This document shows positions 3,864 to 27,877 of a stretch of DNA of 29,981 nt, piece after piece (within the stretch, counting starts at the first letter, position 1; each line of letters starts with the position of its first letter). The notes under the pieces are model-generated. The model did no database searches and was not told the DNA's origin. It saw nothing but the letters and a program-made list of their open reading frames with translations. The stretch comes from a virus. A program made the translations under genes and the position numbers. The stretch lies in the IMG/VR virus record IMGVR_UViG_3300021960_000342, positions 1-29,981 of that record. One strand, given 5' to 3'.

Positions 3864-6167
3864 ATGATTAATACTAAATTTGCAGGTTTTACTTTAAAGC
3901 AAAAGCATACACTTGCTAAAGGTATGGGCTTTGATGGCAAAGCAAATAATAAAGAAATAGATAATTTTATTAACTCAAATCCACAAAACTCTAACACTTA
4001 TGCTATGTATGTGAATGCAGCAAAAAATGCAGTGGGGGGTTTTATGTCTAAGGGCAGAGCAAAAGGTATGTCTCAAGGTGGTGCTTTTTTTGATCAACCT
4101 TTTATTGGAGGGGGTTCAAGAGAATTTGCAGAAAAAAATTATGGTCAGGTTGGTCCCCCAAACTCTACTCTTCAAGGTAATAATCCTACTTTAATAGATA
4201 AAGTAAATAATTCTTTAAAAACACCTAAAAGGCTAAAGCCAGTAGAAGACCCCGGTAATTTTTCAGAATCAGACCCCGGTGTTTGGCAACATATTCACAA
4301 CAACTTTAGTAATAACCAACATCAAGCGGTTATTAAAAATAACGTTACAGGTGCGCAACAAGCTAGTGGGGGTTACTACGCAACCAGAGCGGAAGTAAAT
4401 GCAGCATTAGCACCTGTATTAGAGTCTATGAATAAACCTCATGAAGACTATAAAAAGAAAAAATCTGAGTACGACAAGAAGAAAAAAGCTTTTGATGCTT
4501 ACACAGCTAACGTAGCAGAGATAGAAAGAGTTGGTGAAGAAAAGAACCAAGTTATTGGGGATATTTCATATGCTGCTGTTACTTCTCCTGCAGAGATGGC
4601 AACTAAAACTAAAGTTGATACTATTACAGAGTCTGAAGATCAACTTATTGACAAAGCCACAGGCCAAGTTTCTGGTACTCCTTCTGCAACAGCTACTACT
4701 GCAGGGGCTACTACTGCAGATACTTCTGCTGACGTAGCTACAGAAACAATATCAGCAGCCAGTATTGCGGATAAAACTAAAGCTGAAGCTGACAAGGTAA
4801 CAGCAGCACAAGGTGCTGTATCTGAAGATGAACAAATTACTGCTGCTAAAGGAAGCTTGAGCAGTACTGGCACAGATGATATTGTTAAGATTACTGATCC
4901 TACTCAGATAGTTCCCCCTCCTGCTCGTAAGGTAGAAGAAGGTGAGATGATTAGTGGTTCTGCTGTAGATATGGCTGCAGTAAAAGAAGCCACTGACATT
5001 CAAGCTGCTACTGCTGATCCTAGTAAAAGAGCTACAGTACAGGGACAGCTTGAAAGTTTAATGCAAGACTTTGAGGGTGGCGATACTCCTTCTTGGGCTG
5101 CAGGAGCTATGAGATCGGCAACAGCACAGATGTTAGCACGTGGTCTAAGCTCTAGTAGTATGGCAGCACAGGCTATTGTACAAGCCGCTATGGAGTCTGC
5201 GCTACCTATCGCACAACAAGATGCACAAGTAGTAGCACAGTTTGAGGCACAAAACTTAAGTAATCGTCAACAGACTGCTTTGTTTGCTGCACAACAACGT
5301 GCTGACTTTCTTAAGTTAGACTTTAATCAAGAGTTTCAAGCACGTGTAACTAATGCTGCTAAGATTAGTGACATTGCTAACATAAACTTTACTGCTGACC
5401 AGCAAATAGCTTTAGAAAATGCAAGGTTGACACAGACTACAAATCTTGCTAATATGTCAGCATTAAACGCTAAGGTTATGGCTGATGCTGCTGCTATGAG
5501 TCAGATGGATTTAACTAACCTATCTAATGAGCAACAAGCTGCTGTGCAGAATGCTCAGAACTTTTTACAGATGGATATGGCTAATTTAAGTAATCTACAG
5601 CAGACTTCTATGTTTAAAGCTCAAGCGGTACAACAGGCACTACTTACTGATGTTGCCGCTGAGAACGCCGCTAAACAATTTAATGCGACCAGTAAAAATC
5701 AAGCTTCTCAGTTTATGGCAAGTCTTAAGTCACAGGTTGATCAGTTTAATGCGACTCAAACTAATGCAATGAATCAATTTAATGCTGGTGAAAAAAACGC
5801 ATTATCTAAATTTAATGCAGAGATGCAAAATCAAAGAGATCAATTTAATGCTACTAACACTCTTGTTGTTGCTCAAGCTAACGCTCAATGGCGTCAAAAT
5901 ATTGCTACTCTTAACACCGCCGCTAAAAATGAAGCTAACATGGCTGACGCCAAGTTTCAAAATGGTTTTACTGAAAATGCTATTAATCAAATTTGGCAAC
6001 GTGAAAGAGATATGATGGCTTATGCTTTTACCGCTTCGGAAAGTTTAAAAGAAAGAAATCTTAAAATATTAATAGCAGATAAAAACTTAGAGAGCGTTCG
6101 TGATCAACTAGATCAAGCTGAAGATGCAGCTAGGTCTGAGTTTTGGTACAGATTTCTATTTAGTTAA
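3864..6167 (+). CDS. Large virion protein with Asn-phased 11-residue helical repeats
   Basis: 767 aa, probably an internal or tail-associated virion protein in the place of T7 gp15. Three parts are visible: residues 1-190, Gly/Asn-rich; 195-390, low-complexity Lys- then Ala/Thr-rich; ~453-705, a long helical array with exact 11-residue periodicity, Asn or Asp at position 1 and often Phe or Leu at position 11. 'QFNA' recurs in several units. No cysteine and no membrane segment was seen. It is followed at once by a transglycosylase gene, which fits an ejectosome cluster. Assignment rests on composition, size and context, not on a named family. Confidence 0.7.
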   Translation: MINTKFAGFTLKQKHTLAKGMGFDGKANNKEIDNFINSNPQNSNTYAMYVNAAKNAVGGFMSKGRAKGMSQGGAFFDQPFIGGGSREFAEKNYGQVGPPNSTLQGNNPTLIDKVNNSLKTPKRLKPVEDPGNFSESDPGVWQHIHNNFSNNQHQAVIKNNVTGAQQASGGYYATRAEVNAALAPVLESMNKPHEDYKKKKSEYDKKKKAFDAYTANVAEIERVGEEKNQVIGDISYAAVTSPAEMATKTKVDTITESEDQLIDKATGQVSGTPSATATTAGATTADTSADVATETISAASIADKTKAEADKVTAAQGAVSEDEQITAAKGSLSSTGTDDIVKITDPTQIVPPPARKVEEGEMISGSAVDMAAVKEATDIQAATADPSKRATVQGQLESLMQDFEGGDTPSWAAGAMRSATAQMLARGLSSSSMAAQAIVQAAMESALPIAQQDAQVVAQFEAQNLSNRQQTALFAAQQRADFLKLDFNQEFQARVTNAAKISDIANINFTADQQIALENARLTQTTNLANMSALNAKVMADAAAMSQMDLTNLSNEQQAAVQNAQNFLQMDMANLSNLQQTSMFKAQAVQQALLTDVAAENAAKQFNATSKNQASQFMASLKSQVDQFNATQTNAMNQFNAGEKNALSKFNAEMQNQRDQFNATNTLVVAQANAQWRQNIATLNTAAKNEANMADAKFQNGFTENAINQIWQRERDMMAYAFTASESLKERNLKILIADKNLESVRDQLDQAEDAARSEFWYRFLFS
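5220..5978 (+). repeat. In-frame 11-residue (33-nt) repeat array in the 767-aa virion protein
   Basis: Counting in steps of 11 from residue 453 to 705 gives an unbroken register of about 23 units. Position 1 is Asn in most and Asp in several (N464, D486, N497, N508, N519, N530, D541, N552, N563, N574, D596, N607, N629, N640, N651, N662, N673, N684, D695). Position 11 is commonly Phe or Leu. Units such as QFNATSKNQAS and QFNATQTNAMN are near copies. Hendecad spacing predicts a slightly right-handed amphipathic helix. Confidence 0.85.
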
Positions 6168-7414: not shown

Positions 7415-8458
7415 ATGGCTATAAGTTTTGCAGGTCTACTAGAGGGCCAAAAGGGTTTAGCGGCGGAACAAGCTGCTGCTGCTAAGGCACAAGAAGACAA
7501 AGAGTGGCGGGAACTTATTCGTCAAGATAGCATTGATGCTAAAGAACAAGCTCAAGCTAATTTTATGCGTGGTATTAAAGACAAAAGATTTACTGTTCTT
7601 GCAGCCGCTGGTACAAAATATTTTAATGATCGTAAACCTACTGAGAAAATGACACAGGACTTAACCTTCCTTAACAATTTAGTAGGAGAAGTAGAGGGTG
7701 GCAGTAACTGGTTAGATAGCCTTGGCAACAACCCCGCTTTAATATCAAAAGCTGCTGATGCTGTAAGAATAGCTAAGGAAAAAAATAACTATCCTGTTAT
7801 TGGTCAAGACTTAGTAGATAATTTTATAATTATTGGCGCAAGTAATGACCCAGACGCAGCACTACAAGAGTTTGCTAATACGGGTGATTTGTATCGTCAG
7901 TTTGCTGAAGGTGACATTCAAGATGATGAGTTTTACTTTGACTTTCTTGCAAGAGTTTCTACACCTGTTGCTGCTTCTACTAGCACGTATAAAATTATTG
8001 ATCCAAAGAAACTGGGTATGGCACTTCCGGGTGGTGAAGATTATACAGCACAAAGTAAACTGTACGAAAAAGAAGTTAATAAAAGAATGACAAACAGGTT
8101 TCAAGAGCTTACTACTTTAGTTCAAAGTTTACCTGATAACACTCCAGAACGGAGAGCAGCAGACGCCGAGCTTGTTAAAGTGACAAATGCACAAAATGGA
8201 TCGCAAAATAATAATGATACCCTTAGAGATCAATTGTTTGGCGATAGCGCTTGGGACTACTTAGCAGAAACATATAAGAGCAATCCTCAAATGTTTGGTA
8301 ACGGAGCTTTCGCAAGACCGGGAGGCCCAGCGCCTGTTGAAACTCCTACAGTACGTGAACCTCAAATTGGAGAGAGAACAGATCAACCGGGATCAGATGG
8401 TAAATATCGTATTTGGGATGGAAATGCTTGGGTTCCAGAAGATGAGTTTCAACAATGA
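7415..8458 (+). CDS. Probable virion protein, function unknown
   Basis: 347 aa starting directly after the previous stop, with CAAGGAGAGC as an excellent ribosome binding site. The first ~70 residues are Ala/Gln/Glu-rich and helical; the middle is mixed, with no recognised motif. The end is Pro/Gly-rich and closes with a small aromatic module (GKYRIWDGNAWVPEDEF), like short 'WDG-W' motifs that sit at the end of some phage structural proteins. The stop overlaps the start of the 1284-aa gene by four bases (ATGA), so the two are probably made in a fixed ratio. Confidence 0.6.
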   Translation: MAISFAGLLEGQKGLAAEQAAAAKAQEDKEWRELIRQDSIDAKEQAQANFMRGIKDKRFTVLAAAGTKYFNDRKPTEKMTQDLTFLNNLVGEVEGGSNWLDSLGNNPALISKAADAVRIAKEKNNYPVIGQDLVDNFIIIGASNDPDAALQEFANTGDLYRQFAEGDIQDDEFYFDFLARVSTPVAASTSTYKIIDPKKLGMALPGGEDYTAQSKLYEKEVNKRMTNRFQELTTLVQSLPDNTPERRAADAELVKVTNAQNGSQNNNDTLRDQLFGDSAWDYLAETYKSNPQMFGNGAFARPGGPAPVETPTVREPQIGERTDQPGSDGKYRIWDGNAWVPEDEFQQ

Positions 8459-11400
8459 GTAGTGCATTAGATAGTCTTCCAGAAGGCTTTACTTTTGGAG
8501 GTAGGTCTTCCTCACAAGTTGAGCCAGAAGAAATTGCAACACCTAGCAGTGCATTAGATAGTCTTCCAGAAGGCTTTACTTTTGGAGGTAGGTCTTCCTC
8601 ACAACAACCTGCACCTCAAGAACAAACTCAAGATACTGTACCTCTACCTGCTACTGTTGATACTCTTGAAAAAGGTACCTACACTGAAACTGATTTAAAA
8701 GATGATAAGTATTACGGTATCGTGTCTGAGTACATGAAGAACCGTTACAACATTGAAGAATCCGATGACTACAATAGAGAAGAAATAACCACCATGTTTA
8801 TGAATAACATGCGGGGTTTTGCTGGTGGTAATACTGTACGTGCAATCTCTGAGGTTGCTTATCTTAACGGTCTTAGTGAAGAAAAACTATCTAAAGTGGG
8901 AGAAGCATATACTCTGTTTGAGGGTATGGCTAATCTATACAGTGATGAAACTAGCTTTAGTGAAGCTGCTGGGGGTACGTGGGACTACGTTCGTTCTGCT
9001 TTAGCTGATCCAGTAAACTTAGTAAGTCTAGGTGTAGGTAAAGTTTTTGCTAGTGCTGGGACTAAGGTTGCTATTAAGTCTGCACAGGGACTAGCTAAGG
9101 CAGCTATGAAGCGTGAGCTAGCAAGGGGAGCTACAAAGGAAGCTGCAGAAGAAGCAGGAAAAGCTATTTTTAGGAAACAAGCGGAGCGTCTTAGTCGTAA
9201 GTCTTCACTTGAGCTTGCTAGAAAACAAGGTAAAAAGTCTGCCATAAAAGAAGTAGTGGGTTCAGTGGGAGTAGACATTGTACAGGCAGCAGGTACGGCC
9301 TACGCCTATGAGAAGTCAATGGTACGTACTGATGTGCAAGATGAAATAAGTCTTCATTCTGTAGGTTTAGCTGCAGTAGGTACAATGATTCTTGGTGGTA
9401 CAGTTGGTGCGCTTACTGTAGCAAGGTCTGCTAAGTCTGGGGGTTTAGAAACATTAGGCACTGAAGCCCTATCTTTACCCAGTGGTGTTAATCCAAACCT
9501 ACAGCCCTTGGAAAGTATGACCGACATGTTTGGTTTTAATTTCTTTGAGGGTGAAAAAGTTATTAAAAATATGACCCAGAGAAACCCTGAGACTGGAATG
9601 GACGAAGCTATAGAAGGTACTGTAGTAGGTTTCAAGAAGGGTCAAGTGTTAGTGCAGCTACCAGATGGTAACACACAGTTACTGAGAAGGGCTGACCTAC
9701 GCCTTGCTGATAATACTATTACTGGTGGTAATGAGGGAGCAATAGGGGGTCGTAATGGCTGGGAAGCTGCTGTGTCACGTGGGTATGCTGTAGAGCTTAT
9801 CAATAAACAAAGAAAAAATAACGAACTTGCTCTTTCTGATCCTAATTTTGTTGGGCCACCAGTCTCTCCTAAACCTAAAAGTTTAAACGAACTAGATCAA
9901 GATTTCTTTAAGACCTTACTATTGGGTAATAAAGAGTTGAGGGTTAGAGGTATTGTTGAGGCAATGGCAGAGCAGGGTTACATCTTTCAGAAAAGAAATA
10001 AAGATGACACCATCACTAGGTTTGTAACTGATGCTCTTAGAAGCACTGGTGCAGATTCCACTGCTCATCGTAACGTACTTACAAAGTTTATGGAAGACTT
10101 TACTAAAGCTACAGGAATTACTAAAGTAAATTTAGGTGTTATTGGTAAAGGAAATGTAGATAAACTAGAAGATCTTAACATAGATAACTTCGCTGACTAT
10201 CTTAGCTTTAGAACAAGTGATGCGGCTAAGACACTTAACAACTGGTCACAGGCTCAAGAAGCATTAAGGGTGACAGAACTTAAACTAGACAATACAACTT
10301 ATGATGATTGGTTGAGAGCTGCTGTTTTACAGGAATCACCTGATGAAGTGCCGCTAAATGCTCTTGGTAAGTTTTTAGACAAGTACGTAAATGAGGGAAT
10401 AAAGGCAAATCAAAACAGGGTTATTAGGCTTCTTGTTTCTAACCCTTCTACTTCTGCATTAAACTTAGTTGGTTGGGGTGCGGCTACTGGAATTAACTCT
10501 GTTGCTGACATTGGGGTAGGAATCGTACAACTAAATATTGCTGCTACATACAAAATATTTGGTAAAAATGAAAAGGCGTCAGAACAACTACGTCAAGCAA
10601 GTTCTTTGTTTATGGCTAATAAACAGAGGTTAAGAAACTTAGTAGACTCTGAGATGACTTACGATGCCTTCAAAGCGTTAGGAAATAAAAACCCACAACT
10701 AATGAAAGACTTAACTGAAACTCTCAGTGGTGGTGTAGATGCTGGTAAAATGTCTAGTTTTGACCCAAAGAAAACAATAGCAGGTCAAGGTGCGGATAAG
10801 TTTATTGATACTGTACAAACATTAACTTTTGTTAAGGCTCAAGATGCATTTACAAAATCTCAAGAGTTTACATACCAACTGGACAAAAGGCTCCGTAAAG
10901 ATTTCAACAAGAGTTGGAGTGAGTTTTTCTCTGATGAAAATGCTGATGTAGCTATGAAAACATTTAAGTTTAAACAAGCAATAGCAGACGCAGTTGTAGA
11001 GACACAAGCTGCTACTTTCTCTAAATCTTTTGCTGACACAGGTGCATTTCCAAAGTTTATTGAAGAGATGCGTAACATACCCGGTGTAGGTTTAATTGTA
11101 CCCTTTGGTCGCTTCTTTAATAATACCCTTAACTTTATCGTTGAAGGGACGGGTGTAGCCATGCCTTTAAAGCTTGCAACAGGCAGGTATAAAACAAAAT
11201 CACAAAAAGAACTTGCAATGAAAGCTGGTATTGGTTGGGGTATAGCGTTGACTTATGCTGATCAAGAAAAGTTTAATAGGGAGCAAGGATTAAATTGGGA
11301 TCAATACAGAGATAGAAATGGTGCAGTAATAACAGTTAAGTATGACTTCCCTATTTCACACCTTAAAGCTGGGGCTGCTATGTTATCTTATGTACTTAAT

Positions 11401-12309
11401 GACCAAAAAATTCCACCAGACATGTTAAAAGATATGAGTGACCAGTTGGGATTTGGTTCTATTACACGCCAATTAAATCAAACAGTAGATGGTTTGGGTA
11501 GTACTTTATCTCTAGCTGTAACAGGAGATGAGGCAGCAATAAAAGAACTTAAGAAGGTTTCTGGTAAAATGTTGAGTCAAGTAGTTTCTGGTGTGACTAG
11601 AGCTGTAGACCCCATCAATCAAGTAGTAGGTTTAGCTAGGGGTGAAGATGGTATTTCTATAGACAGGAGACAGAACGGACGAGTATTAAATGATAGTCTT
11701 CGTTACATGGATCAAATTATTGGTGCTGTTAAAGGCGACTTAGCCCCTCAAAGATTTAATGCAGCCACGGGTAAGAAAGATCAAGATGCAACTAAACTTG
11801 TAGGTGTTCGTGAGGTTAAAGTAACTGACACAGCGAAGATGATGAACATGATTGGCAAACCTTCGTTTAAAGCTGATGTATCTATAAATACTGCTGGCTC
11901 TGCCGAAGGTAGCAATAGATACGCTGAAGTGTTTCACAGCTTTGTGGAGTATAGGGCTGGTAAACTTATTAGAAGTGACCTTATGAACGACGACAAGTAT
12001 TCTCTAACAGATAGACAGAATCAGGTTGAAACGGTACTAAAAGAGGCAAAAGGATTAACTGAAGCCTTTATGGAGTTAGGTGCTGTTCAATCTAATGACA
12101 GGATTTTGTTTAAGATGTTGAAGTTAGTAGGAAAAGCTAACAGCGTTAAAACTTTAGATAAGGTAGTAAAAGAGATGGGCGTATACGATTCCTTCTCAGA
12201 CCTTGCAGATGTTGAATCTGAGTCTGAGGTTCTTGATCAACTTGTTTTAATTGGTGCCTACTTAGATGGCGAAAAATACAGGCAGAAGATACTACCTAGA
12301 CCCTACTAA
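8455..12309 (+). CDS. Giant internal virion protein (T7 gp16-like position)
   Basis: 1284 aa, the largest gene here and the last of the rightward block. The N-terminus contains two copies of an SALDSLPEGFTFGG module. An acidic region and a helical Ala/Lys-rich segment (~210-300) follow, then several hydrophobic stretches (around 300-330, 670-700 and 880-935) that could cross or lie on a membrane. Size, terminal place in the virion cluster and membrane-active look match DNA-ejection proteins such as T7 gp16, but the transglycosylase domain is on a separate gene and no direct sequence motif to gp16 is visible. Expected role: packed in the head, ejected to form the trans-envelope channel. Confidence 0.7.
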   Translation: MSSALDSLPEGFTFGGRSSSQVEPEEIATPSSALDSLPEGFTFGGRSSSQQPAPQEQTQDTVPLPATVDTLEKGTYTETDLKDDKYYGIVSEYMKNRYNIEESDDYNREEITTMFMNNMRGFAGGNTVRAISEVAYLNGLSEEKLSKVGEAYTLFEGMANLYSDETSFSEAAGGTWDYVRSALADPVNLVSLGVGKVFASAGTKVAIKSAQGLAKAAMKRELARGATKEAAEEAGKAIFRKQAERLSRKSSLELARKQGKKSAIKEVVGSVGVDIVQAAGTAYAYEKSMVRTDVQDEISLHSVGLAAVGTMILGGTVGALTVARSAKSGGLETLGTEALSLPSGVNPNLQPLESMTDMFGFNFFEGEKVIKNMTQRNPETGMDEAIEGTVVGFKKGQVLVQLPDGNTQLLRRADLRLADNTITGGNEGAIGGRNGWEAAVSRGYAVELINKQRKNNELALSDPNFVGPPVSPKPKSLNELDQDFFKTLLLGNKELRVRGIVEAMAEQGYIFQKRNKDDTITRFVTDALRSTGADSTAHRNVLTKFMEDFTKATGITKVNLGVIGKGNVDKLEDLNIDNFADYLSFRTSDAAKTLNNWSQAQEALRVTELKLDNTTYDDWLRAAVLQESPDEVPLNALGKFLDKYVNEGIKANQNRVIRLLVSNPSTSALNLVGWGAATGINSVADIGVGIVQLNIAATYKIFGKNEKASEQLRQASSLFMANKQRLRNLVDSEMTYDAFKALGNKNPQLMKDLTETLSGGVDAGKMSSFDPKKTIAGQGADKFIDTVQTLTFVKAQDAFTKSQEFTYQLDKRLRKDFNKSWSEFFSDENADVAMKTFKFKQAIADAVVETQAATFSKSFADTGAFPKFIEEMRNIPGVGLIVPFGRFFNNTLNFIVEGTGVAMPLKLATGRYKTKSQKELAMKAGIGWGIALTYADQEKFNREQGLNWDQYRDRNGAVITVKYDFPISHLKAGAAMLSYVLNDQKIPPDMLKDMSDQLGFGSITRQLNQTVDGLGSTLSLAVTGDEAAIKELKKVSGKMLSQVVSGVTRAVDPINQVVGLARGEDGISIDRRQNGRVLNDSLRYMDQIIGAVKGDLAPQRFNAATGKKDQDATKLVGVREVKVTDTAKMMNMIGKPSFKADVSINTAGSAEGSNRYAEVFHSFVEYRAGKLIRSDLMNDDKYSLTDRQNQVETVLKEAKGLTEAFMELGAVQSNDRILFKMLKLVGKANSVKTLDKVVKEMGVYDSFSDLADVESESEVLDQLVLIGAYLDGEKYRQKILPRPY
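8461..8604 (+). repeat. Perfect 57-nt direct repeat, in frame, 87 nt apart
   Basis: Bases 8461-8517 and 8548-8604 are identical over all 57 positions; the preceding Ser codon differs (AGT against AGC). They encode SALDSLPEGFTFGGRSSSQ twice, separated by a 10-codon linker. Identity at silent sites points to a very recent duplication. Confidence 0.97.
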
Positions 12310-23168: not shown

Positions 23169-23342
23169 TCAGCATAGTCTTAACCTCAACTTTCCTTTGA
23201 TACGGTTGGCTTTCTTTTCTTCTGCCCGTCTAATAGACCTTGCAGATAGACTTTTAGATTTACATAACTTATGCCACCCTGATTTTTTTGCAATAGTTCT
23301 TGATATTGAAGAGGTCTTAATATGGTGTGGGCTGATAGTCAT
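23169..23342 (-). CDS. Small, strongly basic protein coupled to the integrase (short gene)
   Basis: 57 aa, hand-found. AGGAG lies 6 nt before an ATG that overlaps the integrase stop (ATGA), so it is made with the integrase. It is rich in Lys/Arg (about 19 of 57) with little acidic residue (SISRTIAKKSGWHKLCKSKS, then SARSIRRAEEKKANRIKGK). Small basic proteins next to tyrosine integrases are often recombination directionality factors, but no Xis fold can be recognised here, so that role is only a candidate. Transcription stops at the hairpin just after it. Confidence 0.7.
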   Translation of the reverse strand: MTISPHHIKTSSISRTIAKKSGWHKLCKSKSLSARSIRRAEEKKANRIKGKLRLRLC

Positions 23343-24268
23343 CTTTTTCTCCTATTAAGAGCTGCGGTTGCAGTCTCCAAGTTATGTTTGTTGTAGGGAT
23401 TTAAACTTGCTACATTTTTATGTCCTGTAGCTGACATGATCTGTAAGCTGTCAGCTCCTCCTTTTATCATCTCAACAATAGCAGTCTTCCGTAAGTCACC
23501 AGCCTTAAGCTCGTCAGGCAACCCTGCAGCCTCCTTAACTTGGTTGACTAGGATACCTACCTGACCACACGTGTATGGCCTGTACGCCCTGTCCTGCTTC
23601 CTGTAGTGGGGTACTACGTATGGTTGGAAGCCCCAATGAAGCTGCTGCTCTGTTAGCATCTCATTCATCTGCTCGTCAATAGGTAATTCTACCTCTGCCC
23701 CACGCTTAGTCTGTTTGATGGTTGTTACCCCACCCTCCAAGTCTATGTTGTCCCACTCCAAGTTGCGTATGTCCACAGGTCTTTGACCCCATTCATATGC
23801 AAGCATAACAAGCAGACCTATGTTTCTCCACTTGAAATCAGAGAAAGCAGTATCAAGGAATGATACGACCTGATTGTTAGTCCACACCACTGATCTTGTT
23901 TCTGTAGTCCTCTTGTGAACCTTAGACATTGGGTTACGGTCTAACAGATCAAGCCCCACGCACATATTGATTAGCATGGAAAAGATGCGGGACATTTCAT
24001 TGGCATGACTGACACTAACATCTTCAGCCCAATCATTGTACATAGTGTCGCACATCTGAGGAGTAAGTCTGTCTAACTTTACTCCCCCAATCCTCTTTGC
24101 CCCTACGTATCCAGAACACAATCTAAGTAGGCAATAGTGGTACGTCCTGTGTGTGTTACGTGATAGTTCTCGGAACCTTGGGGTGTTAAAGTAGTAGGTA
24201 ACTACTTCTTCTATCGTAGAGGTGGAATGTAAGCCTACCCCTACTTTTCTACTTTTTCTTGGTCTCAT
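23339..24268 (-). CDS. int: Tyrosine-type integrase/recombinase
   Basis: 309 aa, typical two-domain size: N-terminal SAM-like core-binding region (~20-110) and catalytic domain. Active-site set: R163 (EWGQRPVDIRNLEW), K188 (TKRG), R260 (GDLRKT), H283 (ATGHKN) and nucleophile Y292 (NPYNKH). The usual HxxR histidine is Gly (G257). It would insert or excise phage DNA at an att site, so the phage may be able to lysogenise. It has a ribosome site GAGG 5 nt before ATG and an unusual 132-nt leader. No attP core or tRNA fragment was found near it by eye. Confidence 0.9.
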   Translation of the reverse strand: MRPRKSRKVGVGLHSTSTIEEVVTYYFNTPRFRELSRNTHRTYHYCLLRLCSGYVGAKRIGGVKLDRLTPQMCDTMYNDWAEDVSVSHANEMSRIFSMLINMCVGLDLLDRNPMSKVHKRTTETRSVVWTNNQVVSFLDTAFSDFKWRNIGLLVMLAYEWGQRPVDIRNLEWDNIDLEGGVTTIKQTKRGAEVELPIDEQMNEMLTEQQLHWGFQPYVVPHYRKQDRAYRPYTCGQVGILVNQVKEAAGLPDELKAGDLRKTAIVEMIKGGADSLQIMSATGHKNVASLNPYNKHNLETATAALNRRKR

Positions 24269-25151: not shown

Positions 25152-26168
25152 CTATAAAGCGTTAGCGTGTTTGACAGTATAGTTGCTCTCGCTGATGCCC
25201 ATCTCGTCAAGCAGGGTGTCATACCTGTAACCATAGGAGTGCAGCAACTTAGCAACAGCCTGTGGGTTCTCTGCTAGTACATCCTCAATACGTAGTAACT
25301 CTACGTTTTCTGAGAAGCCATCGTCATCGTCATAGTAGTCAAAGGCTGATCTGTACGTACTACCATTGTAGCCAGTAATGTCACCCCAACCACGTGCCCA
25401 GTCAACACCCCACAGGCACTCAGGCTCTGCGGTATGGTCACGCACAAACACCAGACGGGACCAGTCAGCCTTGATAAGACGCTCGGACAGCTCATTGGCA
25501 TACCGCAAGTCCTGTGTCTCATTGGACGTATGCTGTCTGTAGTAACCCACACTGACATTGGTACACTCGGACACAACACTAGCATACTCGTTGCTGTCAG
25601 TGTATGAGCCACCATCGTCAGGCTGCAACTGAGGCATACCTAGGGCATCGGACAGGCTCTCAGCAAACTCATCAGACGCAGTACGGTAGGATGACTGATG
25701 CGTGATGATAGACTTGTCACCATACCGATCAAAGGATATGACAGCCTTGACCCCATCAAGCCACTGAGGTCTAGCCTTGACCAACGCCTGACTACCCAAG
25801 CAACCAATCTCTTCTGCTGAATGGACAACATACGTACCAACAACACCCGCCTCAATCATATTGAGCATGAGCCAGATACCAGTGGTACAGTCAGCACCCA
25901 AACAGGATGAGGTAGCAGGATCAGCAACAGAAGCCACGTCATTGATGACTAGGACATTCTGCATACCACCCTGCTTGTGTACTGTATCGTGGTGAGCAGT
26001 GAAACAGATAGGTGGATACTGACCAGTCTCATCACTGATAATCTTGATGTAATTGCCATGCACATCTGGATAACCAAACACAGGTTCCAAGAACCGCTGA
26101 CAAAACAATCGTTGCGCCTCACAACCATCAGGCCGCATATACCGCAACATCTCTACTAAACTAAACAT
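25152..26168 (-). CDS. Zinc metallopeptidase-like protein (clan MH, M20/M28/M42 type)
   Basis: 338 aa. A full two-metal site is visible in order: H59-H-D61 (AHHDTV), D93 bridging aspartate (LGADCTTG), E119-E120 general base and ligand (HSAEEIGCLG), D147 (SFDRYGD), and a late His (H213, RQHTSN). Family enzymes are aminopeptidases or carboxypeptidases/deacylases. The last ~90 residues are unrecognised, acidic and Tyr-rich (DYYDDDDGF). No signal peptide, so it should act in the cytoplasm. This is unusual cargo for a podovirus. It starts within the preceding gene's stop (TAATG). Which substrate it cuts is unknown. Confidence 0.8.
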   Translation of the reverse strand: MFSLVEMLRYMRPDGCEAQRLFCQRFLEPVFGYPDVHGNYIKIISDETGQYPPICFTAHHDTVHKQGGMQNVLVINDVASVADPATSSCLGADCTTGIWLMLNMIEAGVVGTYVVHSAEEIGCLGSQALVKARPQWLDGVKAVISFDRYGDKSIITHQSSYRTASDEFAESLSDALGMPQLQPDDGGSYTDSNEYASVVSECTNVSVGYYRQHTSNETQDLRYANELSERLIKADWSRLVFVRDHTAEPECLWGVDWARGWGDITGYNGSTYRSAFDYYDDDDGFSENVELLRIEDVLAENPQAVAKLLHSYGYRYDTLLDEMGISESNYTVKHANAL

Positions 26169-27877
26169 TATGCTACTTCTCCTTCTTTTTCTTTTACTAC
26201 TGGATGATACAAACCTGTTTTTCCTAGTTGAACATAATCATCATCATCCTCTGCCTCATCCCTAGATACATGGGAATCATTGCCATCTGCATCTGTAACA
26301 GTCACAAGCTCTGAGAGTGGATATAGTTCAGTGTCCCAATCTGAGGTAAAGTATTCATCTATGTTATTAGGTGATATATACATATCCTCATACTCACAGA
26401 ATGTAACGTCCTCCTCCCGCCACCAATCACCATCAGTACAGTACAAAGCATAGCCGTCTAGGTTACTGTCATGCACCATGTATGAATTAGAACCCCAACG
26501 AGTAACTCTATTAACTGAGGTCATGTTGTCATTGTGGTAGTAGCAGTCATCAACCTCACATTGTGAATGAGTATTGTGATAGCAACTCTCGCACATGGAG
26601 GTACTAGTACACTCGGAGTAGTACTGATCGTCCTCATGCATACTGTCACCACACTCCTCACAACAGTAATCATTACCCTCAAGAACACCACGGTATGAAC
26701 CAGCATTGATACCACCACGCTGATCAATCTGCAGGTAGTCACTGTCCAACTCAGTGAGGCGTGTAGGTTCCACATCAAGATAGGGGGCGACATAACCACC
26801 ATTGACATAGGGTATGTTGAGCATCTTAGCACCCTCCCAACCGCTATGCCTGAATACATCCCAACTATCATCTGCCCTAGTAGCCTCAATAGCCTTGCCC
26901 ATAGTGGTCATAGCTTGTTCTGATAGACCATACAGAGGTCCAGCCCTAGGCTTGTCAGGGTCAGTAGTAAGAACAACACAACGCCCTGCTACCTTACCGT
27001 CAGGCTCCTCAACCCAATAGATAGTAAAGTCACCACTAGCATAAGCCTGAGCAGGATGATGAGGCAAAGTATCCTTGTGGTAGTTGTCATCTGAGTAGAG
27101 GTAGGAAGGACGTAAGCATGAGTTACCCAGAAACTTCCTATAGCAACCAGTGTCAGGGTTCTCGTTAGTACCCAACGCGCCACCATATGCTTTCTCAAAG
27201 TCAGCACGTGATTTACCAGACTTGAGGGTGAGGTCTTTGGACACCATCTCAGCACGAAATGCATCGCCCAATATCTCAATCTGAGCATCGCAGAAGTTGG
27301 GGAACATAGACTTGAACGCTCTGCCCACCTTCATAGCAACCCTACGGCTACCATCCACATCACGAACAGCATCAGCATGGTTCTTGAACAGGGATATCTT
27401 ACCCTTGAACTCCTCAGAACGCTTTGGGTTGAAGTACCCCAACCTCTGACCAGTATTCATATACTGGCCTGAGTTGTTACAGATACCACGCGCCATATGC
27501 CAACCCGCAATCCAATTACGATCACGCACTTGATCCATAATGAACCGCTTTAGCTTACGGTCTGAGGTACATCCCGCATAGCCATAGTCATATTCAGCAT
27601 CATAGCCCCATGTTTCTAGCATGGCATCACTCTCAAGTTTAGTGACTTTGAGGCCATAGCGTGTCTCTTGGCCTATATGCCACCAAGAGGTTACGTGAGC
27701 GTCATCACTAACAGGTATGATGACATTGCCACCAACAAGGTGGTCACCATCCTCACTTACAAGGGCACCATCTTCCTGTACATTTAGTTCCTGCCCCTCA
27801 TAGCAGGACTCTATGCCCCCCAACTGGGAGACATAGTTATCGCAAATATCTTCTATCGTAATTTGGAATCTAGGCAT
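26168..27877 (-). CDS. Large acidic protein with central Cys/His zinc module, unknown
   Basis: 569 aa. No enzyme family is recognised. Residues ~405-448 form a cysteine- and histidine-rich module (C405, C406, C409, H414, C423, C429, C432, H434, H437, C440, C445, H448), which reads as two interleaved zinc sites in a cross-brace arrangement. The long N-terminal part (1-400) has several conserved-looking aromatic blocks (WHIGQETRYGLKV, NWIAGWHMARGICNNSG) and an acidic Asp/Glu-rich end. Upstream neighbour is an HTH regulator, downstream the metallopeptidase: an early-region host-interaction role is plausible. RBS AGGAGGGCTAAGG. Confidence 0.7.
   Translation of the reverse strand: MPRFQITIEDICDNYVSQLGGIESCYEGQELNVQEDGALVSEDGDHLVGGNVIIPVSDDAHVTSWWHIGQETRYGLKVTKLESDAMLETWGYDAEYDYGYAGCTSDRKLKRFIMDQVRDRNWIAGWHMARGICNNSGQYMNTGQRLGYFNPKRSEEFKGKISLFKNHADAVRDVDGSRRVAMKVGRAFKSMFPNFCDAQIEILGDAFRAEMVSKDLTLKSGKSRADFEKAYGGALGTNENPDTGCYRKFLGNSCLRPSYLYSDDNYHKDTLPHHPAQAYASGDFTIYWVEEPDGKVAGRCVVLTTDPDKPRAGPLYGLSEQAMTTMGKAIEATRADDSWDVFRHSGWEGAKMLNIPYVNGGYVAPYLDVEPTRLTELDSDYLQIDQRGGINAGSYRGVLEGNDYCCEECGDSMHEDDQYYSECTSTSMCESCYHNTHSQCEVDDCYYHNDNMTSVNRVTRWGSNSYMVHDSNLDGYALYCTDGDWWREEDVTFCEYEDMYISPNNIDEYFTSDWDTELYPLSELVTVTDADGNDSHVSRDEAEDDDDYVQLGKTGLYHPVVKEKEGEVA

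Follow-up and report, generated by a model that had tools for sequence, protein, structure and literature searches.

A protein with proline-free hendecad repeats from an HMO-2011-type marine phage, a putative helical genome-delivery or rod protein

What is the function of a phage protein in which one long region is built of 11-residue blocks and nothing else? The question is raised by a 767-aa protein that is encoded in a 29,981-bp virus record. This record, the whole stretch of DNA that was analyzed, is referred to as the window. By its sequence, the window phage is an HMO-2011-type short-tailed marine phage. Phages of this type belong to the most abundant and most widespread groups of marine viruses (PMC9038755). 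Our literature search returned no studies of DNA delivery by HMO-2011-type phages, no virion proteomics for the group and no description of the protein family. A preliminary description of the window had reported about 23 unslipped 11-residue repeats with an Asn/Asp register, and had proposed a membrane- or DNA-lining rod. The observation is confirmed and considerably strengthened by the analysis given here, while the interpretation is partly supported. All features are listed in Table 1.

Table 1. Layout of the repeat protein gene and of the genes downstream of it (positions in the window).
Feature	Position	Strand	Basis or remark
Repeat protein ORF, 767 aa	3864-6167	+	belongs to a family of 358 unique proteins
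Three-helix mini-domain, N-terminal (residues 11-61)	3894-4046	+	AlphaFold block means of about 95-97 (residues 11-50)
Variable Pro/Ala/Thr-rich region (residues 62-389)	4047-5030	+	mostly low AlphaFold confidence
Conserved head preceding the repeats (residues 390-452)	5031-5219	+	invariant columns (W-A-x-A ... RGLSSSS ... LPIAQQDA)
23 hendecad blocks (residues 453-705)	5220-5978	+	block division, family phase model
Array blocks 1-13 (N-terminal)	5220-5648	+	bulk chiefly on stripe 2-6-10; 22-residue alternation
Array blocks 14-23 (C-terminal)	5649-5978	+	bulk chiefly on stripe 4-8-11 (F at 11, I/V at 8)
Conserved helical C-terminal tail (residues 706-767)	5979-6164	+	conservation, AlphaFold
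Transglycosylase-like protein, 249 aa	6177-6926	+	matches glycosylase/minor tail and tape-measure proteins
Helical partner, 160 aa	6932-7414	+	near-universal neighbor of the repeat gene
347-aa protein, T7 gp15/P22 gp20 position	7415-8458	+	position and size only
1284-aa protein, T7 gp16 class	8455-12309	+	resembles internal virion protein D from T7-like phages of Pelagibacter

The array consists of 23 blocks with zero slip, as had been described. Position 1 is N in 15 blocks and D in 5 (together 20/23), the exceptions being A475, K585 and M618. Ala occupies position 2 in 15 of the 23 blocks, and position 11 is F in eight and L in two, with Phe found mostly in the last third of the array. The concentration of N/D at position 1 has a z of 8.4; none of 100,000 residue shuffles was as high (the maximum being 5.8), which rules out chance as the origin of the pattern. 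Self-identity has maxima at lags of 11, 22, 33, 44 and 55, and is highest at 22 and 44. There is a 22-residue alternation (NLSNxQQ... / NAQ...), which is weaker than the 11-residue period. Tandem Repeats Finder detected no tandem repeat in the DNA under the array. This rules out a DNA tandem repeat as the origin of the array; the pattern is thus kept at the protein level.

Homologs were collected from 415 loci, which yielded 357 unique proteins (358 with the window protein). They were gathered by scans with short peptide patterns, one of them within the repeat, so that members devoid of this motif are under-sampled. A search of isolates by tblastn is free of this bias, and none of the nine isolate proteins examined departs from the phase. 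With a dynamic-programming phase model, 341 of the 358 proteins are divided without slip and 17 with one slip. In a model-free check, all of the 81 dereplicated proteins that were tested had their best self-identity lag at 11, 22 or 33. The 11-residue phase is therefore kept among homologs. The register at position 1 had been called invariant, which is too strong a word, as N and D together account for 76% across 142 dereplicated homologs. Anchor distances fall into one set of 60, 82, 104, 137, 148, 214 and 258 residues (all 5 mod 11) and another of 149, 160, 215, 226, 270 and 314 residues (all 6 mod 11), the latter with three outliers that look like search-pattern mismatches. An initial pass had given classes 6 and 8 mod 11; a second Trp, 35 residues downstream, had apparently also been matched. 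The array is lengthened and shortened in whole 11-residue units only.

Proline does not occur in the repeats (0/41,970 residues), while it makes up 5.1% of the residues elsewhere in the same proteins. Between anchors picked without the phase model, 4 of 59,667 residues are proline. Glycine accounts for 1.2% of the repeats. The AlphaFold model shows helix over nearly the whole repeat region, with no beta structure and no globular fold, at low to moderate confidence (mean pLDDT 63.8, pTM 0.28, and about 45-63 for residues 501-580). Blocks 14-23 lie mostly inside an unbroken 124-residue helix (residues 577-700, block means mostly 75-80). Most of residues 433-572 are also in helices, and breaks are predicted at 483-488, 505-510, 531 and 573-576. 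The model is that of a monomer and carries no information on oligomers. The repeats, which had been suspected to be helical, are predicted to form a very long 11/3 (hendecad) alpha-helix. They share with hendecad coiled coils an in-phase repeat, the lack of proline and a core spacing of 4-4-3 (2-6-10 and 4-8-11). Hydrophobic power at a period of 2.75 led us to consider beta or 3-10 structure. The 11-residue unit has its fourth harmonic at this period, and both structures were rejected because of the lack of proline and the helical predictions.

Array size ranges from about 11 to 81 blocks among the 358 proteins. After dereplication, block numbers bunch near 16, 23, 32, 41, 52, 62, 71 and 81. 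This clustering was matched by none of 2,000 jittered nulls and is still seen among the 71 proteins that the strictest dereplication leaves. It may be due in part to shared ancestry. In long members, block similarity recurs at lags of 5 or 6, 10, 15 or 16, and 20 blocks, so that arrays are likely to grow by modules of ~110 residues, as judged by these similarities. Array length varies within one phage type: the DNA polymerase of a record with 51 blocks is 67% identical to that of the window, and a homolog of the HMO-2011 Hc3-like (head closure) protein is encoded in three records with long arrays (51, 61 and 71 blocks). These three records were also considered with a long-tail tape measure protein in mind, which would be found in long-tailed phages and would follow the tail in length; the Hc3-like homolog was the observation made.

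Modules of 5 and 10 blocks might be hairpin units, with the array split into antiparallel helices of 22-55 residues that fold back into a bundle. The bunching of array lengths about every 9-10 blocks, the similarity lags in long members and three of the predicted breaks (483-488, 505-510 and 573-576) are consistent with such a fold. We nevertheless consider it improbable, since repeats with virtually no proline and so little glycine have no evident turns, the 124-residue helix is predicted without interruption, and hairpins need no strict 11-residue phase across each break.

The faces of the predicted helix were analyzed on an 11/3 wheel for the whole family. Charge is directed to +34 degrees (positions 5, 9 and, in part, 1) and amide residues to -140 degrees, so that the two directions are 174 degrees apart (p = 0.03 upon permutation of positions). 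There are two hydrophobic stripes, 2-6-10 and 4-8-11, which are almost opposite each other. The two-stripe moment of the family is 6.75, compared to a single-stripe moment of 0.48. When positions are permuted, p is 0.18 for the two-stripe strength by itself and 0.005 for the ratio of two-stripe to one-stripe moment. Bulk on 2-6-10 and bulk on 4-8-11 have a correlation of -0.50, the third most negative among 4,620 triple pairs. The bulky stripe is 2-6-10 (L, V, M) in the N-terminal half and 4-8-11 (F, I, V) in the C-terminal half of the array; in both, the opposite stripe consists of Ala, Asn or Gln. If only bulky residues are considered, the last nine blocks have one dominant stripe, 11-4-8, with 4-4-3 spacing. 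Overall, Ala, Gln and Asn make up 47.5% of the repeat residues and charged residues 15.5%.

The two-stripe wheel of the family argues against a helix that lies on lipid, and it suits a wall helix of a multi-helix tube. A membrane-lying amphipathic helix with a single hydrophobic stripe, which the preliminary description had envisaged, is therefore not borne out. Apolipoprotein, synuclein and LEA repeats do share the 11/22-residue periodicity and the scarcity of proline. The family differs from them in that a single lipid-binding face is absent family-wide, the repeats are rich in amides and Ala with few charges, and indels are confined to whole units, a bar on non-multiples of 11 that is stricter than surface binding needs. 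An assignment of the repeat protein to this class is thus very improbable.

The window protein has no match in Pfam (and no S74 domain) or in PHROGs, but its relative from CRP-3 matches phrog_6121, a PHROG of virion structural proteins. Searches with the protein and with the family profile found no sequence relatives in the PDB up to E = 1, and Foldseek found no PDB match below E = 3. Against BFVD, Foldseek returned three matches below 0.001 (two unnamed, one from an uncultured phage) and a weak match to a 'DNA transfer protein' (0.2). The repeat protein represents an undescribed family, as far as these searches reach. Roseobacter CRP phages, Puniceispirillum phage HMO-2011 and SAR11 phages encode relatives of the repeat protein, the 160-aa protein and the 1284-aa protein; for the repeat protein, there are remoter relatives in phages of Rhizobium, Sinorhizobium, Vibrio, Aeromonas and Pseudoalteromonas.

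Some observations on the records that were compared are given here in their own right. The product of HMO-2011 gene 44 (L082:5034-6542) has matches to head closure Hc3 (5e-7) as well as to an 'amidase' PHROG (3e-107); its amidase label is doubtful. In record G007 (that of L191), a DNA polymerase homolog (C1:37468-39527) is in two pieces that are ~200 bp apart, with a TAA in the first match; an intron, an intein remnant or a frameshift is possible. The same two phage contigs (L091-L094) are contained in two MAGs, Flavobacteriales TMED123 and Neomarinimicrobiota MED589. As these are named for different phyla, MAG binning of the contigs is uninformative on the host. In the window itself, a 728-aa tail protein (162-2348) has ~24-residue NTAVG/NTTG repeats, which are probably a beta-solenoid, and a C-terminal S74 chaperone (Pfam, 9.7e-9). 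An integrase of the phrog_1 family is encoded at 23339-24268 on the minus strand of this HMO-2011-type fragment. A 569-aa protein without a PHROG match (26168-27877, also minus strand) has a Cys-rich, zinc-ribbon-like stretch (CCEECGD...CESCYH).

Genes downstream of the repeat gene are spaced by 0-10 bp or overlap, and the repeat gene is the first in a cassette whose last gene is gp16-like. The 1284-aa product of this last gene matches internal virion protein D with 1e-4 to 6e-4 in tblastn, and with 3e-12 in a pairwise BLASTP comparison (residues 80-319). It also has a duplicated motif, SSALDSLPEGFTFGGRSSSQ, within its first about 55 residues. The gene for the 160-aa partner follows the repeat gene at 270 of 275 loci, in most cases one or two ORFs downstream, and the repeat protein is likewise encoded in each of the 22 isolate records with the partner. 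The partner is a confidently predicted helical domain (AlphaFold pLDDT 88.6), yet no fold relative was found in the PDB. The 249-aa transglycosylase-like gene is optional, with homologs at 9 of the 275 loci.

The repeat gene precedes genes at the gp15 and gp16 positions, which is the order found for T7 gp14 and P22 gp7. The cassette thus resembles the podophage ejection sets (T7 gp14/gp15/gp16, P22 gp7/gp20/gp16, DEV gp73/gp72/gp71) in gene order, in its gp16-like last gene, in long helices and, in the window, in the nearby transglycosylase-like gene. It differs from them by the extra 160-aa partner. No 11-residue array was found in the T7 or P22 ejection proteins examined, and homology to T7 gp14, P22 gp7, gp15 or gp20 is undetectable. 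Gene order, a seemingly shared G-[SN]-S loop and a Gly-rich C-terminus had suggested that the repeat protein might be an enlarged T7 gp14 or P22 gp7. This was rejected, as the hhalign probability is below 1%, which does not exceed that of reversed controls. The gene context, together with the virion-structural PHROG match of the CRP-3 homolog, suggests that the repeat protein is part of the virion. That it is ejected, as the preliminary description considered likely, agrees with the gene neighborhood, which is the evidence for it.

We favor, with somewhat less than even confidence, that the repeat protein belongs to an ejection cassette and that its hendecad helices build a straight tube or bundle. 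The long helix would then probably serve as the wall of a tube or rod for genome delivery. In each helix, 2-6-10 and 4-8-11 would be sticky stripes, with a charged/Asn face formed by 1-5-9 and a Gln/Ser/Thr/Ala face by 3-7. Parallel copies would stand side by side in a ring, 2-6-10 of one helix on 4-8-11 of the next, so that bulky residues of one helix pack on Ala, Asn or Gln of its neighbor. Such packing would lead to a straight tube or bundle with the charged face outward and the amide face towards a lumen. After ejection, the assembly may conduct DNA to the cell envelope or across it. Gain and loss of whole blocks only would be expected in such an assembly, because indels of other lengths would shift the faces out of register along it.

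The closest known system is DNA pilot protein H of phiX174, a decameric alpha-helical tube that passes DNA across the cell wall and is built of 3 hendecads and 11 heptads (PMC7354561). Asn, Gln or Arg occupies 18 of 23 inward positions of H (PMC7354561). When its three hendecads (PMC7354561) are placed on the wheel, charge is opposite amide, and the second moment is slightly larger than the first. The repeat protein is like H in its hendecad blocks, its Gln-richness and a charged face that opposes an amide face. It is unlike H in having 23 hendecads (up to 81 in relatives) rather than three plus heptads, and in belonging to a double-stranded-DNA phage of another type. The PDB search up to E = 1, which would include the solved H domains, revealed no sequence relation to H. 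A DNA-lining rod, one of the two options in the preliminary description, is possible and is preferred by us because the amide-rich face opposes the charged face as in the H tube (PMC7354561).

Several results speak against a tube. The wheel statistics are modest, the last nine blocks are single-striped by their bulky residues, and the monomer model has low confidence. There is no homology to gp14, gp7 or gp15 and no PDB match, and some relatives have S74-like ends (see below). Straight arrays of 50-81 blocks would measure about 83-134 nm, which is far beyond what the envelope needs and is hard to reconcile with any simple tube that spans the periplasm. Such arrays would also exceed the width of a capsid for a genome of this size, and this bears on yet another reading, in which the helix bundles as an internal core or scaffold rod around the portal, or organizes capsid DNA, with no DNA channel. 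The cassette context would be compatible with this, and DEV gp72 forms a helical ring that surrounds the portal before ejection (PMC10925440). We regard an internal rod as unlikely, as the long arrays would have to fold or coil.

The main rival to the tube is a trimeric tail needle or central fiber, because an S74-like domain has been added after the conserved tail in about 13 of 314 complete relatives (one confirmed by Pfam, 6.7e-6). S74 domains are a mark of trimeric fibers. The repeats would form a right-handed hendecad trimer, a rod of variable length, and the C-terminal S74 chaperone would aid folding in some phages. The gene is located downstream of fiber genes in HMO-2011 and in the window, lengths of about 11 to 81 blocks are reminiscent of the variation in external fibers, and the single 11-4-8 stripe of the last nine blocks could be the core of a trimer. 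The protein would then resemble, as a helical rod with S74 at the C-terminus of some relatives, the tail needles and S74-chaperoned fibers of the P22 gp26 and endosialidase types. However, a trimer requires one core stripe, while the family average is two and the dominant stripe switches sides between the halves of the array. In addition, most homologs, including the window protein, are devoid of S74, and the gene is linked to the 160-aa partner and the gp16-like cassette. The termini are also the opposite of those of an N-anchored fiber: the tail is conserved, and the part N-terminal to the repeats varies from 61 to 1329 aa among relatives. We therefore hold a trimeric rod to be a serious possibility that is rather unlikely. 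With respect to the termini, we also observed that the mini-domain is present in 122 of the 358 family proteins, mostly at the N-terminus as in the window protein, that a CWVAREVYG-type (CWVARE) domain has been added after the tail in 7 relatives, and that C-terminal domains after the repeats are interchangeable among relatives (L090, L202, L195, L205, L373; L082, L395).

The repeat protein is best filed with the helical genome-delivery or rod proteins, as a new variant with a putative function. If the tube reading holds, it is tempting to speculate on a length-tunable conduit, although we give this a low chance. One group of short-tailed phages would build an amide-lined helical tube, and the count of 11-residue blocks would determine how long it is, ~10-block modules being gained and lost. 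Tube length, ~20 to 130 nm if straight, would then be a quantized, evolving trait. The family provides hundreds of natural variants of one very regular helix, in which the register survives while the length varies several-fold. It is thus a direct test bed for the assembly of hendecad helices, and for the question of a fixed length of ejection tubes in podophages.
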